64,000 nucleotides of DNA, taken from Laspinema sp. D2d (lineage in GTDB: Bacteria > Cyanobacteriota > Cyanobacteriia > Cyanobacteriales > Laspinemataceae). Each line of letters opens with the position of its first letter. Positions within the stretch are counted from its first letter, which is position 1. Positions 11,684 through 18,074 of the stretch are shown in pieces. The DNA is taken from positions 2,540 through 66,539 of the forward strand of contig NZ_JAMXFC010000017.1 in assembly GCF_025370755.1 (NCBI RefSeq), written 5' to 3'. The notes beneath the pieces are model-generated. The model worked only from the letters and a program-made list of their open reading frames with translations, had not been told where the DNA came from and ran no database searches. The position numbers and the translations under genes were made by a program.

Positions 11684-13789
11684 TTAGGCGACATGATAAG
11701 GAGAGGTCAACAAGTCTAAATGCTTGGTTAACAAGCTCAAGAATAGCCCCACGTCGGTGACCACTCCTGTGGATTCAACGGAACCGCGATCGCTGAGTTT
11801 AGTGACGACTGCCGGATTAATATCGACACAGACCATCTTCACCCCAGAAGGCGTCATGTTACCGACCCCAATCGAGTGCAACATGGTTGATAACATCAAA
11901 ATCATCTCTGCCCCTTCCAGTAACTTTGCATACTCTTCCTGGGCCTTAATTAAATCCATTTGAGTATCAGGCAACGGTCCATCATCTCGGATGGAACCCG
12001 CCAGAGCAAAGGGTACATTGTGCTTCACACATTCGTAAAATATACCGCTCTGGAGCGCACCTTGTTCCACCGCTTTCGCAATACTGCCATAACGGCGAAT
12101 AGTGTTAATCGTTTTCAGATGGTGCCGATGTCCACCCCGGACGGCGACACCCCGCTTCATGTCCACCCCGAGGGAGGTTCCCATAAACGCTTGTTCCATA
12201 TCGTGAACGGCGATCGCATTACCACCGAGCAACCCCTGGATATACCCTTCGCGAATTAACCGGGTCAGATGTTCGCCGCCGCCGGTATGAATTACCACAG
12301 GTCCAGCCGTCACCACCACCTTACCGCCGCGATCGCGAATTTGCCGCAATTCCCAGGCGACTTGTTCCACCACCAATTCCACCCGGCGCTCACTAGAGAC
12401 CCCGGAAGACATAAAGCTGAATTCCTGGTTGTTACGTTGTTCCCGCGCTCCCGTCTTCCGAACCGTGCGGATTCCAGCCACATCCACCACCACCGACTCA
12501 CCCAGTGCCAAATCGCGCAGGAGCTTGCATCGAGCTACCGGCCCTTGGGGGGTTTGCACCACGGCGATCGCGCCATCCATACGATGATTCTGCACCCGGA
12601 CCCACTCGCCCTTAATCCGCACTTCCGTGGGATAAATCGTGGTAACATAGAAATCATCCGGAGCTACCCCATTTTGTTGAACGGGTTCGAGTTTGGCATC
12701 CCGCTCATCTTGAGGTAAATCTACCGCACCCAAGTCAATCAACTGGGCTAAAATCTCTTCCATCACCGTATGGGAAGGCGCTGATACTTTCACCTCTGCG
12801 GTGGAGGTACTCTGCCGTTGCTCTCCCAAGTTGAAATTCAGCACTTGGAAACTGCCGCCCCCCTCCACGATCGTATCTAGCGCCCGGTTGATTAATCCCG
12901 TATCTAGGAGATGTCCTTCTAAGCGAATGGTCCGACTTTCGACGGGTTCATTGGCATGGATATTTTCCATGACAGGTTCGGTGGTTCGCAGGGTCAGACA
13001 CTTCGCTGCACCGCCTGCTTTCAGGAATTCGCTGAGGGTAGTTTCAAATACTTCAAACCCGACATTTTTGAGGCGTTGTTTCAGGTCATCGCTGACCTTG
13101 TTCATGATTACTTTGTCCTCAACATTGACCGCATTGCAGGCAAAGTTTACGGCGTCTGCTTCTCCAATGGCAATCCGTTTTTCTGGGGGAACGCGCATTT
13201 CAATGATGCGGTTAGAGTAGAAGTCAAAAGCTGGAGGATAATACAGTAAATAGCCGCGATTGAGGGGACAGAAGCAGGTATCTAGGTGATAGAACCGTTC
13301 ATCAGCTAATTGAAGGGAGATGACTTGGATATCTAACCATTTGGCAATATAGGAGTGCGAATCCAGTTCAGAACGGAACCCATATCCTGCCCACAGCCAC
13401 CGTCCTTCGCGATCGAGCAGTGCATCTCCCGCCCCTTCAAAGGGTAAATCTTTCGGAAGTTCGTAGACGGTGTACCCTTGGGCTTCAAACCACTCTTTGA
13501 AATAGGGTTCTTCCCCTTGGCGTTCTTTGTGGAAAAAGCGACTGAGGACGACTTTTTTCCCCAGAACTAATCCGGCGTTGGCGGTAAACACCATATCAGG
13601 CCAACCGGGTTGGGGATCGACGAGTTCAACGAGGGCGTGTTCTTTGATGATGTGGAAGAGTTTATGCCACTGCTCCGTGGCGCGATCGCGAGAAGATTTG
13701 TGGATGTTGCCCTCCATCCAGGGATTAATCACATAATCCACGTCATAGTGGTTGGGGGGACACATCAGGATACGAGTCTCAGAATTCAT
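11684..13789 (-). CDS. argZ: Bifunctional arginine dihydrolase / ornithine cyclodeaminase (ArgZ/AgrE type)
   Basis: 701 residues, the usual length of cyanobacterial ArgZ/AgrE. The N-terminal ~270 residues form a guanidine-modifying-enzyme domain converting arginine to ornithine, CO2 and two ammonia. The residues I count fall exactly at the known catalytic positions: Asn71 (FTANAG), His168 (FYHLD) and Cys264 (AAKCLTL). This also supports the ATG at 13789. The rest (~280-701) is the TIGR00300/LOR-SDH region with an NAD-binding C-terminal part (VVTAGPVVIHTGGG, LLGGNAIAVHD), associated with ornithine-to-proline conversion in AgrE. Role: mobilisation of arginine or cyanophycin nitrogen. An NtcA-like palindrome lies just upstream. 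Confidence 0.93.
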   Translation of the reverse strand: MNSETRILMCPPNHYDVDYVINPWMEGNIHKSSRDRATEQWHKLFHIIKEHALVELVDPQPGWPDMVFTANAGLVLGKKVVLSRFFHKERQGEEPYFKEWFEAQGYTVYELPKDLPFEGAGDALLDREGRWLWAGYGFRSELDSHSYIAKWLDIQVISLQLADERFYHLDTCFCPLNRGYLLYYPPAFDFYSNRIIEMRVPPEKRIAIGEADAVNFACNAVNVEDKVIMNKVSDDLKQRLKNVGFEVFETTLSEFLKAGGAAKCLTLRTTEPVMENIHANEPVESRTIRLEGHLLDTGLINRALDTIVEGGGSFQVLNFNLGEQRQSTSTAEVKVSAPSHTVMEEILAQLIDLGAVDLPQDERDAKLEPVQQNGVAPDDFYVTTIYPTEVRIKGEWVRVQNHRMDGAIAVVQTPQGPVARCKLLRDLALGESVVVDVAGIRTVRKTGAREQRNNQEFSFMSSGVSSERRVELVVEQVAWELRQIRDRGGKVVVTAGPVVIHTGGGEHLTRLIREGYIQGLLGGNAIAVHDMEQAFMGTSLGVDMKRGVAVRGGHRHHLKTINTIRRYGSIAKAVEQGALQSGIFYECVKHNVPFALAGSIRDDGPLPDTQMDLIKAQEEYAKLLEGAEMILMLSTMLHSIGVGNMTPSGVKMVCVDINPAVVTKLSDRGSVESTGVVTDVGLFLSLLTKHLDLLTSPYHVA

Positions 13790-13806
13790 AATTTGCGCTA
13801 TATTCG

Positions 13807-13820
13807 GTAAGTAATGTTAC
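13807..13820. promoter_or_regulatory. Putative NtcA-binding palindrome
   Basis: GTA-N8-TAC, the consensus of the nitrogen regulator NtcA, centred ~25 bases upstream of the argZ start codon. Activating NtcA sites normally sit ~40 bases before the transcription start with a -10 about 22 bases downstream, and there is no room for that here. A repressing or promoter-proximal role, or chance (expected every ~4 kb), is therefore possible. Confidence 0.4.
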
Positions 13821-13862
13821 AGATTTGGGATTCAGTGATTTTTGTAGCAGCAAGACAAAACT

Positions 13863-13887
13863 CCTCCTTTTTTACCTAAAAAAGAGG
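13863..13887. repeat. T/A-rich inverted repeat upstream of argZ
   Basis: CCTC(C)TTTTTT / AAAAAAGAGG with a 4-nt loop and T-runs on both sides. It could terminate a transcript entering from either direction, or be an argZ leader hairpin. Confidence 0.4.
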
Positions 13888-14169
13888 TTTTTTCAGAACG
13901 AATTCGTCTGAGCTATGTCATAACAGCCAATTCTTTATCTTATCACAAGATAGTAATAAGTTTTTGAGGTAAAAAAAATAGTCCCTTTTAACTCGAAGAG
14001 AGATTTTCTGCTGGCAATAGAGAAGCCGGTTGGGTCGAGTCTTTTAGGAAAGGGTTGTTCTTGGAAGGAAGAAAGGCTTAACCCGGGGGCAATTGAGGGC
14101 GATCGCATCATTGGTCTTGGCCCGGAAAGCCGCCGGAGTGAGCGCCTCTGAATGGCGGATTGAGGAGAG

Positions 14170-14221
14170 AAAAAAAAATCCCTCTAGCCGAAGCTAGAGG
14201 GCTCGTCAATCAGGGTGCATC
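14170..14221 (-). ncRNA. Candidate small RNA module, copy 1
   Basis: On the minus strand: TAATAT (possible -10), then the conserved ATGCACCCTGATTGA, then a perfect 9-bp terminator stem CCCTCTAGC / GCTAGAGGG closed by a TTCG tetraloop, then a run of T. The layout predicts a ~50-nt RNA. The conserved head and same-type terminator recur at 14429-14480 and 15537-15580. Confidence 0.55.
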
Positions 14222-14428
14222 TATATTATTAAATTCTAGTTATGGGGGGTTTATCCGGAAAATACTGCAAGTTTTTTTTAAGGGAGGTAAGTAGTCCGAT
14301 GAAGCAATGGCGATCGCCTGTAAACTGGATTTACGAGTCTCCCCAAAAACCAGCGATCGGCCTTGATAACTCCTTTTTTCTAAGACTTTTACAGCGAAAA
14401 ATTTCACCGAGGATTTCCCGACTGCGAG

Positions 14429-14480
14429 AAAAAAAAATCCCCTAGCTTCTCGCCAGGGGGACTCTCAATCAGGGTGCATC
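14429..14480 (-). ncRNA. Candidate small RNA module, copy 2
   Basis: On the minus strand: the conserved head ATGCACCCTGATTGA, shared base for base with copy 1, then a stem of about 8 bp (CCCCTGGC / GCTAGGGG with one G-U pair) and a run of nine T. It lies ~250 bp from copy 1 in the same orientation. Head and terminator are kept while the flanking bases differ. Confidence 0.55.
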
Positions 14481-14647
14481 CAATTCGTTATTTCCCCCCT
14501 GGACTGTAGGCATCCGGGAAAGACTTGAAAATAAAAATACCCTATCCCACCCTTCGTCCAGAATCCCCCCTTCCCAGGATGTTTCTGAGGCGGGTTTTTC
14601 CGAGACGCGATCGCACTCAGGCTAGAGAGTTCCCAAATATACCCCCC

Positions 14648-14676
14648 TTGACAGCACCTCGTGATTGGGGTATCTT
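14648..14676 (+). promoter_or_regulatory. Sigma-70-type promoter
   Basis: TTGACA at 14648-14653, a 17-base spacer, TATCTT at 14671-14676. No ORF with a ribosome site follows, which points to a non-coding transcript starting near 14683. Confidence 0.6.
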
Positions 14677-14682
14677 GTATCT

Positions 14683-14892
14683 CTAGCGTGCATTCTCATC
14701 AGTAAAATTATCAAACTGTCGCGATGAGTGCCTACATCTACACCCGCAGGTTACGGATTGGGTAACTGTCCTGCGCGGATGGCACAGGGAAGTCATTAAC
14801 GCATCTACAAACCACCGAGGAGATTTAGCTCACGTCAGAGGGCAACAATTTCTTGGTTTTGATCTTCTTCTTCTCTGGAGAGAGAAATTTTT
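14683..14892 (+). ncRNA. Candidate ~210-nt structured RNA
   Basis: Bounded by the promoter at 14648-14676 and a terminator-like hairpin at 14871-14892 (TTCTCT-GGAG-AGAGAA then ATTTTT). Inside are a CTCATC / GATGAG stem (about 14695-14728) and a strong two-part stem with CGCAGG / CCTGCG enclosing TTAC / GTAA (about 14755-14785). No start codon with a ribosome site leads to a sensible ORF. Length fits 6S-type or other regulatory RNAs, but I cannot assign a family by eye. Confidence 0.4.
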
Positions 14893-15536
14893 GAAGAATC
14901 ATTGTAAGCTCTCGCCGATTTAAATTGGAAAGTAGAAAATTACGAAACCCTTGGAGTGCGAGCATCGAGCTTTCCTCAGAGGAGACAATTTAAATAGCGA
15001 ATAGCTTAAGCACCATGAAAAGTCTTGAGTTTGATTACCTAAGACTGAGATAGAAAAATATTAAGGCGAGTTCCCGAACACATCAATTCAGATGTGGGCG
15101 CGATTGCCTCGGGGTTGCATTTGCACAAATAGGTTGAGAGTTGGGGCAGAAATTATCAAGCCAATGCTGATGATTCCGTTTATTGTGCAAAATCTGAATG
15201 CGATCGGCCAGACCGATGAGGGAGGGATTGCTCCCTCAGTGATCTCGATGCGGTGGGCATTGTTACGGGCGATCGCCGATCGCCCGTTCAAAACCCCATA
15301 CCCTACCCAGTGGGGCGATCGGGTCCAAGCCAGGGGGCACAGGCTCAAGGGAAACGGGCTGTTAGAAGTCAGCCTGGGGATACCTTCTATTGAGCTAGGG
15401 GATGGGGAGAGACCCGATCTCAGTTGTATCGGGACCGTTCCCGGCCTCAATCTAGCTGTGGATCTCGGAAACCTCAGAGGTTCTAACGTCTCTCCATTCC
15501 GGATCCAGGTGCAATTGTACCGAATAGATCTATTAG

Positions 15537-15580
15537 TTGCACCCTGGTTTCCTCCTAGTCTTTGGGCTAGGGGGTTTTTT
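15537..15580 (+). ncRNA. Candidate small RNA module, copy 3
   Basis: On the plus strand: TATTAG just before, then TTGCACCCTGGTTT (head shared with copies 1 and 2 over TGCACCCTG), then the stem CCTCCTAG / CTAGGGGG with one wobble pair, then six T. Opposite orientation to copies 1 and 2. Just upstream, AGGTGCAA at 15507-15514 forms an inverted repeat with the head. Confidence 0.5.
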
Positions 15581-15851
15581 CTGCGTTTCTCCCCCCTTCA
15601 ACCCAAACAATTGGGGTCCACCCCCTCTTTTTCCATTAGTCTTTATTTACCAAAAAATATCCCAATGAAATCTCGACCCTTTGGCAGCGGCCGCAGTGAG
15701 TGGAGGTTTCTTGGGTCTATTTTTGCCCATTTCCCTTGCATAAAATTACCGACGGCTTTACCTGAGTCCAATCAAAAGACAACACTGAATCCGATACTTT
15801 TTTCCTTTAAAAAGGAAAAATTAATGAGAATTACACAAAAATTGTTGCCCC

Positions 15852-15891
15852 AAAAAATTGGCGGTTTCTCCAGAGAGGCTCCCAATTTTTT
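15852..15891. terminator. Inverted repeat with T/A-rich arms
   Basis: AAAAAATTGG at 15852-15861 pairs with CCAATTTTTT at 15882-15891, with an inner TCTC/GAGA stem. It could act as a terminator on either strand ahead of the pentapeptide gene. Confidence 0.4.
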
Positions 15892-16108
15892 GCGGCGAAA
15901 AATTGCCTGAAATCAATGATTTTAGGTCCTAAGTTAGTCTGAAGTTCATCAACTCGATTTTCCTGAAACCTAGGAAATTTTGGTGTAAGTAACAGTGGTT
16001 TTTGGGGTCTTAGCCTCGGGATTTATTCCCTTTTCATTCTAACGAAACATTATAGGCCCTAACGTCAGTATTCAAGAGTTTTAGGGATTACCATCAACAG
16101 GAAGAAAT

Positions 16109-16915
16109 ATGTCTGCAAATAACGCCCACATCAAACGCTTGTTGGCAACGAAACAATGTCAAGGTGGGGACCTCCGAGATGCCCACTTAACTCGGCTCAA
16201 TCTTAGTGGCGCTGACTTGAGCGGTGCTAAGTTGATGTTTGCCAACCTCAACGGCACTAATCTGAGTAATGCCAACTTAAGCGGAGCCGAGCTCAGTTTT
16301 GCAAATTTTGTGGCCGCTGACCTCATGAGTAGCGACCTAAGCGGGGTTGACGCTAAAGGCGTCAACTTCCTTGATGCCAAGCTGAATCACGCCCAACTCG
16401 GCGGTGCTGATTTGGTCTTTGCCAATTTAGTCAATACGAACCTAGAAGAAGCTAACCTCAGTGGGGCTTCTCTCGAAGGGGCGAATTTAATTGGGGCCAA
16501 TCTCAATAACACTCAGATGAATGGGATTAACCTCTCGGGTGCCAATCTCGGCCATGCTCAAATTCGGAACGCCAATTTATCCAATGCGGACTTGAGTAAT
16601 GCCCGGTTAGTGGAAGCGGACTTGAGTGATGCCAATCTCTCCGGGGTGAATTTGAGAAACGCTAATTTATTAAATGCCAACCTCAATGGTGCTAATCTCA
16701 CAGGTGCTGATTTGACCGGCGCAAATCTAGCTCAGGCGAAGCTCGATGGTGCGATCGGTCTGTACCAGGACAATTTGGTAGGAATGCGCCCGCCCGATCG
16801 CCCTCCTGCATCCCACAATCATCCCAATATGTCTTACGTCAGCGTTCTCCAAACCAATTCCCTGCACTCGTCATCCAATCATCTCGGCCTCCCTCGTCCG
16901 GGGTTGCCGTCTTAA
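16109..16915 (+). CDS. Pentapeptide-repeat protein
   Basis: 268 residues, ATG with an AGGAAG site 5 bases upstream. Residues ~20-215 consist almost entirely of A(D/N)LXX pentapeptides (for example ANLSGADLS, ANLNGANLTGADLTGANL), predicted to form a right-handed quadrilateral beta-helix with about ten coils. The last ~50 residues are non-repetitive, Pro/Ser/His-rich and probably disordered. No signal peptide, so cytosolic. Cyanobacteria have many such proteins with mostly unknown functions; a gyrase-protecting role should not be assumed. A perfect hairpin follows directly downstream. Confidence 0.9.
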   Translation: MSANNAHIKRLLATKQCQGGDLRDAHLTRLNLSGADLSGAKLMFANLNGTNLSNANLSGAELSFANFVAADLMSSDLSGVDAKGVNFLDAKLNHAQLGGADLVFANLVNTNLEEANLSGASLEGANLIGANLNNTQMNGINLSGANLGHAQIRNANLSNADLSNARLVEADLSDANLSGVNLRNANLLNANLNGANLTGADLTGANLAQAKLDGAIGLYQDNLVGMRPPDRPPASHNHPNMSYVSVLQTNSLHSSSNHLGLPRPGLPS

Positions 16916-16929
16916 TGAAGTTAGGCAGC

Positions 16930-16961
16930 AGTCTAGCCCAGTATGGCTACTGGGCTAGACT
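16930..16961 (+). terminator. Perfect 14-bp hairpin downstream of the pentapeptide gene
   Basis: AGTCTAGCCCAGTA / TACTGGGCTAGACT with a TGGC loop, starting ~14 bases after the stop codon. Only a short T stretch follows, so it may be a 3'-end stabiliser as much as a terminator. Confidence 0.55.
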
Positions 16962-17139
16962 GTTATCACAGGGCTGGTTCTGGGAAGAGGTGGCTGGAGA
17001 TTTCCCTCTTCTTGAGCGATCGCCTGCCCTCATGTTCGCAATGGATTTCCTTCGTCATCTGAATGACTATCGGTCCGTTCAATTCCGACAGCTACAGTTT
17101 TTCATCAGGTCATCTACTCCGTGCGATCGCCGCTTCACC

Positions 17140-17319
17140 TTACCGTCCACTCCCACGATGGGGGGCTATTTCTTCCCCCGATTCTAGTCTTGCTGATAAT
17201 ACCTGTGTGTTGAACTCGGAACGCGACAGCTCTAAACTGTGAGATTCACGCCCAGAGAAGTTTGCCGCTAAACCCAGTAAGAACAGGCTACAGAAAATAA
17301 TCGAAAAGTAGCTACGCAT
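17140..17319 (-). CDS. Possible small exported/membrane peptide
   Basis: 59 residues from the ATG of MRSYFSIIFCSLFLLGLAANF; a TTG two codons upstream is also possible. The N-terminus is a good signal peptide or single membrane helix, followed by a Ser/Glu/Arg-rich polar tail. No clear ribosome site is present. It faces the 3' side of the pentapeptide gene in an otherwise empty stretch. Coding status is uncertain. Confidence 0.3.
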   Translation of the reverse strand: MRSYFSIIFCSLFLLGLAANFSGRESHSLELSRSEFNTQVLSARLESGEEIAPHRGSGR

Positions 17320-17618
17320 ATCCAAGATCCGTTTCAGAGCTTCTCTTACTCCTTACGAAATCTCGAATTTTTATCAGTTTAAATAGTCAATAAAAATAAT
17401 TAAATTACCTACATTTATAGATTCTTTTTTATATTTTTAGAAAAAATCCGGTAATTTTTTTTTCATACGGAATCCGGTTTTGAAAGGTCTATAAAACCCA
17501 CACCTATCCATAGTGGGGCTATACGGACTTAGCCCCCCTGCGCGGCGTCAGAGAGAAAATCGACTTTTAGCCACCGGATTTGGTATGATTGCAAAAATGC
17601 TAAATTGGAAATAAACTT

Positions 17619-17650
17619 AAAAAAAAATTAAGGAGCGCTAACTGCGCCCC
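17619..17650 (-). terminator. Intrinsic terminator after the small conserved gene
   Basis: On the minus strand a 7-bp stem GGGGCGC / GCGCTCC (one G-U pair) is followed within a few bases by nine T. It lies ~50 bp after the stop codon of the gene at 17698-18003. Confidence 0.7.
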
Positions 17651-17697
17651 CTAAAAAACATCCCGATCGCCCGGATTCTCAATCCTAAATTTTCGGT

Positions 17698-18003
17698 TTA
17701 TTTGCCACCGTAGTAGAAGGCGATTTCTTTCTCTTTTAAAGGAGCAAAGTCAGCCTTGATCAGCATCTGGTCGAGTTCATCTTGAGCGATATGTTTCGCC
17801 CCAATCCGCACAATGCGCGATCGCATGGTATTGGAAACACCACTGCGCTGCCGTCCCGCCTCTAGTCCCATTACCTGATTGTACAGATCCAGTTTGGCCT
17901 CGGGAATGGGAGAACCATCAAAATCAATTCCTTTGGCGATCGCCACATCGATCGCATCTGCGCCGGTGGTACTCTCCGCAACTGGCTTGTTTTCGCTCGT
18001 CAT
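17698..18003 (-). CDS. Small conserved cyanobacterial-type protein of unknown function
   Basis: 101 residues from the ATG of MTSENKP; a GTG two codons earlier is possible. Soluble and mostly helical. The segment LYNQVMGLEAGRQRSGVSNTMRSR and the C-terminal LKEKEIAFYYGGK look strongly constrained, so this is very likely a real gene, but I do not recognise the family. It is the last gene of a minus-strand run after coaBC, with a gap of ~70 bp, and is followed by an intrinsic terminator. No catalytic motif visible. Confidence 0.75.
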   Translation of the reverse strand: MTSENKPVAESTTGADAIDVAIAKGIDFDGSPIPEAKLDLYNQVMGLEAGRQRSGVSNTMRSRIVRIGAKHIAQDELDQMLIKADFAPLKEKEIAFYYGGK

Positions 18004-18074
18004 AAACACTCTTGAGGTGAAAGATTACCCCAGCATTCTACCAAGTTGCGTCCCCTCGCCATCTACCCAAAGAC

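Follow-up and report, generated by a model that had tools for sequence, protein, structure and literature searches.

Three predicted small-RNA modules and their surroundings

The window, that is, the whole 64-kb stretch of Laspinema sp. D2d DNA that was analyzed, contains three short RNA-like modules between argZ/agrE (11684-13789, NF052231) and a pentapeptide-repeat gene. They lie where the initial annotation had placed them (14221..14170 and 14480..14429 on the minus strand, 15537..15580 on the plus strand), and the predicted RNAs span 14170..14222 for copy 1 (minus strand; head from ~14222, with the start deduced from the DIF1 position; stem 14201-14180), 14429..14481 for copy 2 (minus strand; terminator stem 14459-14439), and 15535..15580 for copy 3 (plus strand; terminator stem 15551-15574). 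The 64 kb contain three exact copies of the head, WTGCACCCTGRTT, against an expectation of 0.01, a count reached in none of 100 shuffles; at up to two mismatches its frequency in the 64-kb window is unremarkable (nine versus 5.93 expected). Every head is followed on its 3′ side by a terminator-like stem and a T-run, terminator-like sites number nine in 13700-16200 versus 3.4 expected, and the folding z-scores of the three copies relative to shuffled sequences are -2.84, -2.63, and -2.66. Both terminators and linkers are highly variable between copies.

Each module is also preceded by a DIF1-type element that was absent from the initial annotation. Copies 1 and 3 have an exact TCCGGA in register with the head (14254..14259, minus strand, and 15498..15503, plus strand), and copy 2 has the DIF1-like motif CCCGGA with one mismatch (14513..14518, minus strand). 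All three elements end 34 positions before the head begins, CCGGAT does not vary in the alignment, and the interval 13000-18000 has no TCCGGA beyond those of copies 1 and 3. The head combined with an exact TCCGGAT at the same spacing is found twice in the window and in none of 100 shuffles. A sigma-70 scan returned two sites (3.7 expected), neither of them at a copy.

Downstream of copy 3, the pentapeptide-repeat protein encoded at 16109-16915 matches HetL with 152.9 bits, below the cut-off of 260, and the repeat alone may be the cause of such a strong sub-cut-off match. The patX gene, encoding an inhibitor of HetR, is located at 17140..17325 on the minus strand, 1.6 kb beyond copy 3, and was recognized by both the family profile (NF047413, 39.3 bits, cut-off 30) and its C-terminal RGSGR. 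A DIF1 motif is expected just upstream of patX; the 400 nt upstream of the window patX contain no TCCGGA, and ACCGGA, with one mismatch, occurs 153 and 127 nt upstream of position 17325. The gene next to patX (17698-18009) encodes an ssr1528-family protein, described as regulated by the small RNA NsiR4 (NF050008, 160.9 bits), and provides another connection to small RNAs that respond to nitrogen. Elsewhere in the same genome, a second PatX-like gene (L431:1504-1734 on G000:C61; 76 aa, ending in HRGSGR) scores 30.3 bits with the profile (cut-off 30), and a bare head near it has no DIF1 or terminator by eye. In the regions of other genomes that were compared (~7 kb each), argZ/agrE was not found beside any copy, and the address of the window copies is not among the recurrent ones.

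Probable assignment to NsiR1

No family was reported by Rfam at the gathering score anywhere in the window, including any Yfr, NsiR4, PsrR1, or IsaR1 model that Rfam may contain. The initial annotation could not assign the modules to a known cyanobacterial family; when Rfam was run below the gathering score, all three matched NsiR1 (RF02399), with 38.8 bits for copy 2 (E 1.6e-5), 33.7 bits for copy 1 (E 2.9e-4), and 29.5 bits for copy 3 (E 0.0031). The gathering score is 39, so that a default scan misses these copies, which is why such copies remain unannotated; that all three score below it counts against the assignment. At E <= 5, the interval 13790-16108 yielded NsiR1, four unrelated weak families, and nothing else; a RybB match to copy 1 (24.9 bits, gathering score 40) was taken as chance. 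Among 14 control genomes, RF02399 had matches at E <= 10 in 13, a match at E <= 0.001 in one (E. coli), and none above the cut-off. The 6.63-Mb Laspinema genome (83 contigs) has 12 RF02399 places at E <= 0.011, five of them above the gathering score, and the next of the 23 matches returned has an E of 0.21. Located on six contigs, these 12 copies indicate that the family is not restricted to the gap between argZ/agrE and the pentapeptide-repeat gene, the "gene desert" into which the modules had been described as packed.

NsiR1 is a small regulatory RNA of nitrogen-fixing heterocyst cells, described as heterocyst-specific, and its copies known so far form a tandem array at hetF. A further hallmark of the family is that under nitrogen stress its expression depends on HetR and NtcA. 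The window copies agree with NsiR1 in having a conserved head and an intrinsic terminator within ~60 nt, as well as a DIF1 element near -35 of each predicted start site when one mismatch is allowed, as has been done before (PMC6133370); the mismatch in copy 2 still weighs against the assignment, as does the location of the window copies away from hetF and in mixed orientation. The genome as a whole has the several sibling copies expected of NsiR1, with three of the 12 linked to hetF (contig C29), divergent from it.

For comparison across genomes, 249 copies from 40 genomes were read: the 12 of Laspinema and 237 at E <= 0.001 in 39 genomes outside f6, which is taken as the heterocyst-forming family; one further genome outside f6 (G005) had no copy at this threshold. 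No other family is known to form heterocysts. The head AGATGCACCCTG is present in 221 of the 249 copies. The initial annotation's proposal of paralogous small RNAs that share a 5′ head and end in a terminator is supported, and both parts are kept in relatives.

Promoter classes, genomic addresses, and association with HetR

Among the 247 copies with full upstream sequence, GCACC is preceded at 40-45 nt by an exact TCCGGA in 124; elsewhere between 20 and 89 nt, this motif was seen in one. The 249 copies were assigned to promoter classes in the following order: 123 have an exact DIF1 (41-45 nt), 46 a palindrome (differing from GGGGTNNNACCCC at no more than two positions), 65 a DIF1 with one mismatch, 13 neither, and two are too short. 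In 16 of 17 control intervals, a one-mismatch DIF1 was found in 0 to 8 copies; the remaining interval, at 22-24 nt, had 32 such copies, which by eye trace to a repeated ACCGGAGA in f7 arrays. DIF1-type copies occur in 38 of the 40 genomes and palindrome copies in 32 (36 when an exact-pattern search is added). The Laspinema genome has eight DIF1-type copies, including the three in the window, and four palindrome copies. In 30 f6 loci with 136 distinct copies, DIF1 is present in 103, a one-mismatch form in 31, and neither in two.

The palindrome contains GGGN5CCC, the potential HetR-binding site of hetR (PMC7377430); in the same source, the DIF1 motif drives the nsiR and patS promoters and needs HetZ for hetR, patS, and patX. 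Of the 386 genomes of the phylum, 41 contain an exact palindrome together with the head (reversed control pattern, 0), and 40 of these have HetR, the exception being G223; the combination is present in 12 of 42 f6 genomes. In named genomes, at least 112 stretches have palindrome and head, and all titles among the matches listed (80) are cyanobacterial, including Lyngbya, Symploca, Spirulina, Leptolyngbya, Microcoleus, Okeania, Moorena, and Coleofasciculus, as well as Calothrix, Scytonema, Dolichospermum, and one MAG called Prochloron.

Neighboring genes of the copies were grouped by similarity, and those that we take to be lgt, cobM, hetF, gatB, and others were named from their sequences. NsiR1 has some old addresses, namely, the lgt-cobM and gatB neighborhoods and a position divergent from hetF. 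Outside f6, a copy is located beside lgt in 22 genomes, beside cobM in 22, and beside both in 18, in every case on the strand opposite to lgt (22/22) and cobM (22/22) and on the 5′ side of cobM. The lgt-cobM copy, with an exact DIF1, is also present in 21 of 22 f6 genomes tested; in the exception, G085, cobM does not adjoin lgt. In two HetR-less genomes, G005 and G223, lgt and cobM are side by side and no copy is present there. The copy nearest to hetF lies on its 5′ side and points away from it in 11 of 11 genomes, at a distance of 0 to 1,765 nt, and the layout in Nostoc is likewise divergent (PMC8406250). The copy nearest to gatB is of the palindrome type, on the same strand, and 60-400 nt 3′ in 11 of 12 genomes; in the twelfth, G191, a palindrome copy 3′ of gatB was recovered by pattern search only. 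Of 110 palindrome-copy loci, drawn from two genome sets with partly the same genomes, 49 have gatB and 20 have argJ no farther than 1.5 kb away.

These addresses also provided alignments in which the compensating stem changes of the initial annotation, a point that three paralogues alone cannot decide, could be followed. The claim stands for the lgt type, where 19 of 22 sequences (three left out) share an eight-pair stem with 96.1% of cells paired and seven pairs changed on both sides, a result matched by none of 500 shuffles; it stands weakly for the gatB type, where the ten pairs obtained from 10 of 11 sequences include two with changes on both sides.

HetR itself is present in the Laspinema genome (PF03574). 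The best nifH match there is 220.8 bits against a cut-off of 394, with none above the cut-off, and probably represents the chlL type. Across the phylum, RF02399 matches at E <= 0.001 occur in 95 of 386 genomes (80 above cut-off), and HetR, drawn with the same settings, occurs in 80 of 386. All 80 HetR genomes have an NsiR1 match, 78 of them at E <= 1e-6, and equally strong matches are found in two HetR-less genomes, G223 and G302 (Fisher's p 8e-77, a value that ignores kinship). Outside f6, a match is present in 38 of 38 HetR genomes, 36 of them strong.

The 13 weak matches in HetR-less genomes comprise seven with a true head, all in genus g23 of family f5, and six without a head. Besides the head, the seven g23 copies (L483-L489) have a GGAGAGTC...GCTCTCC terminator, and they have neither DIF1 nor the HetR palindrome. 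This module, one per genome, resembles the gatB type, yet no gatB is found within the 3-kb loci. Since a copy is retained in these seven HetR-less genomes, the association is not absolute, which counts against the NsiR1 assignment. G223, from the same family as Laspinema, has 11 copies and PatX; HetR gave no match there by profile or protein in a 320-contig draft, an empty answer that, having no positive control, shows nothing. G302 has a single copy with the motif TGCGGA. Copies in HetR-less genomes mean that the RNA can outlive HetR.

In the literature, PatX is described as accompanying HetR. A PatX profile match was found in 12 of the 29 genomes searched, two of these not above cut-off, and the small number is taken as a sign of low profile sensitivity for a short protein. 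In G123:C2 (L176:3187-3540), an NsiR1 copy of the palindrome class is followed after ~80 nt by patX in the same orientation. A general linkage of patX and NsiR1 was considered and rejected: among head-bearing loci, a PatX frame is close to a real copy only in G123.

Alternatives, proposed function, and known systems

Taken together, the three modules are very probably genes of NsiR1-family small RNAs, each with its own DIF1-type promoter. Scores under the gathering score and the wide variation of terminators and linkers would also fit a different, unnamed small-RNA family with only the head in common with NsiR1, but head, DIF1 register, size, terminator, and multicopy state all agree with NsiR1, as does the hetF address of sibling copies in the genome, and five siblings pass the gathering score, which makes a separate family improbable. 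Mobile or selfish repeats that carry promoter and terminator by chance are a still less credible source of the copies: they could account for the many copies, for positions that differ between lineages, and for the tandem duplication and apparently decayed copy in G223:C18, but not for an exact-DIF1 copy kept beside lgt in those 21 of 22 f6 genomes and in 22 others, nor for the covarying stems. The G223:C18 locus (L172:1-900) consists of tandem NsiR1 units, the third of which appears decayed by eye.

The head could, in principle, encode a micropeptide, as it reads ATG CAC CCT GAT; 244 of 249 copies have the ATG, and in many of them, 69 of the 244, the frame closes after four codons. However, wobble positions are fixed (CAC in 242 and CCT in 234 of 244), the frame ranges from 4 to over 26 codons, and copy 3 has TTG. 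Fixed wobble positions together with a variable frame length indicate a constraint on RNA rather than on coding, and a peptide product is thus very unlikely indeed.

For the NsiR1 genes of Laspinema, transcription, HetR/HetZ dependence, target pairing, and a physiological role are proposed by analogy. Each copy would use its own promoter, with the DIF1-type element near -35, to produce an RNA of ~50 nt with a single-stranded 5′ head (AUGCACCCUG, or UUGCACCCUG in copy 3) joined through a short variable linker to a terminator hairpin. On the Nostoc model, the DIF1 promoters of the window copies would be switched on by HetR through HetZ, and palindrome copies may answer to HetR directly. The RNA would then pair with target mRNAs, presumably through the head as a base-pairing seed, and block their translation, again as in Nostoc, and differences between sibling copies may direct them to different targets. 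In Nostoc, NsiR1 blocks translation of hetF and alr3234 (PMC9045159); in a later study, hetF reporters were little changed when the promoter of the hetF-proximal NsiR1 copy was altered (PMC8406250). The exact complement of the head, CAGGGTGCAT, has 22 sites in the Laspinema genome, comprising 10 NsiR1 copies and 12 others (uniform expectation 12.6; reversed-pattern control 0, so that the two baselines do not agree on an excess of sites). The 12 others have no DIF1 or terminator by eye and no target was picked from them, which counts against the NsiR1 assignment.

NsiR1 appears to be an ancestral output of the HetR circuit. It is present in a genome with no detected nitrogenase gene, and its relatives track the master regulator HetR, so that it is probably part of a circuit that predates heterocysts. 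On balance, though with considerable reservation, NsiR1 can be regarded as the ancestral RNA output of the filamentous-cyanobacterial HetR circuit, predating heterocysts and organized in two tiers with the same head, namely, palindrome copies under HetR directly and DIF1 copies under HetR via HetZ, with some copies, fixed as antisense elements, facing hetF and cobM at their 5′ sides. If so, the circuit would include RNAs that act as brakes on its own regulator. What hetR and patX do in species that form no heterocysts has been called a mystery (PMC11298460); hetR and patX deletion strains exist for one tractable species of this kind, Leptolyngbya sp. BL0902. With its tracking of HetR over 386 genomes and its two readable promoter types, this RNA family provides a reporter and a candidate effector for the role of HetR/PatX in such species, and the "heterocyst-specific" NsiR1 is suggested to be a co-opted older part. 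NsiR1, DIF1, and the HetR-PatX pair are already known, and one NsiR1-like RNA has been published from an organism that forms no heterocysts. Neither the palindrome class nor the distribution across HetR genomes nor the copy at lgt-cobM was found in a literature search that did not reach key subscription papers, where NsiR1 outside heterocyst formers may already be mentioned.

The closest known system is NsiR1 of Nostoc (Anabaena) sp. PCC 7120, which the Laspinema copies resemble in the head, a length of ~50-60 nt, an intrinsic terminator, a DIF1 promoter for each copy, many siblings, and a genome that also encodes HetR and PatX. The Nostoc arrangement, in which NsiR1 is divergent from hetF (PMC8406250), is shared by the three copies on C29. 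Unlike Nostoc, Laspinema has no nifH above cut-off; its window copies are scattered over both strands next to argZ/agrE and patX, with scores below the gathering score, and four copies elsewhere in its genome have a HetR-site-like palindrome instead of DIF1. The NsiR1-like RNA162 of Limnospira indica PCC 8005, a 57-nt RNA with measured expression in a filament without heterocysts, is likened here by description rather than by sequence, and in the available text of that report it is a single gene with no promoter or distribution analysis (PMC8400943). NsiR8 and NsiR9 of Nostoc sp. PCC 7120 are small RNAs that require HetR and are set apart, by description, by their sizes of 171 and 122 nt (PMC4734099).
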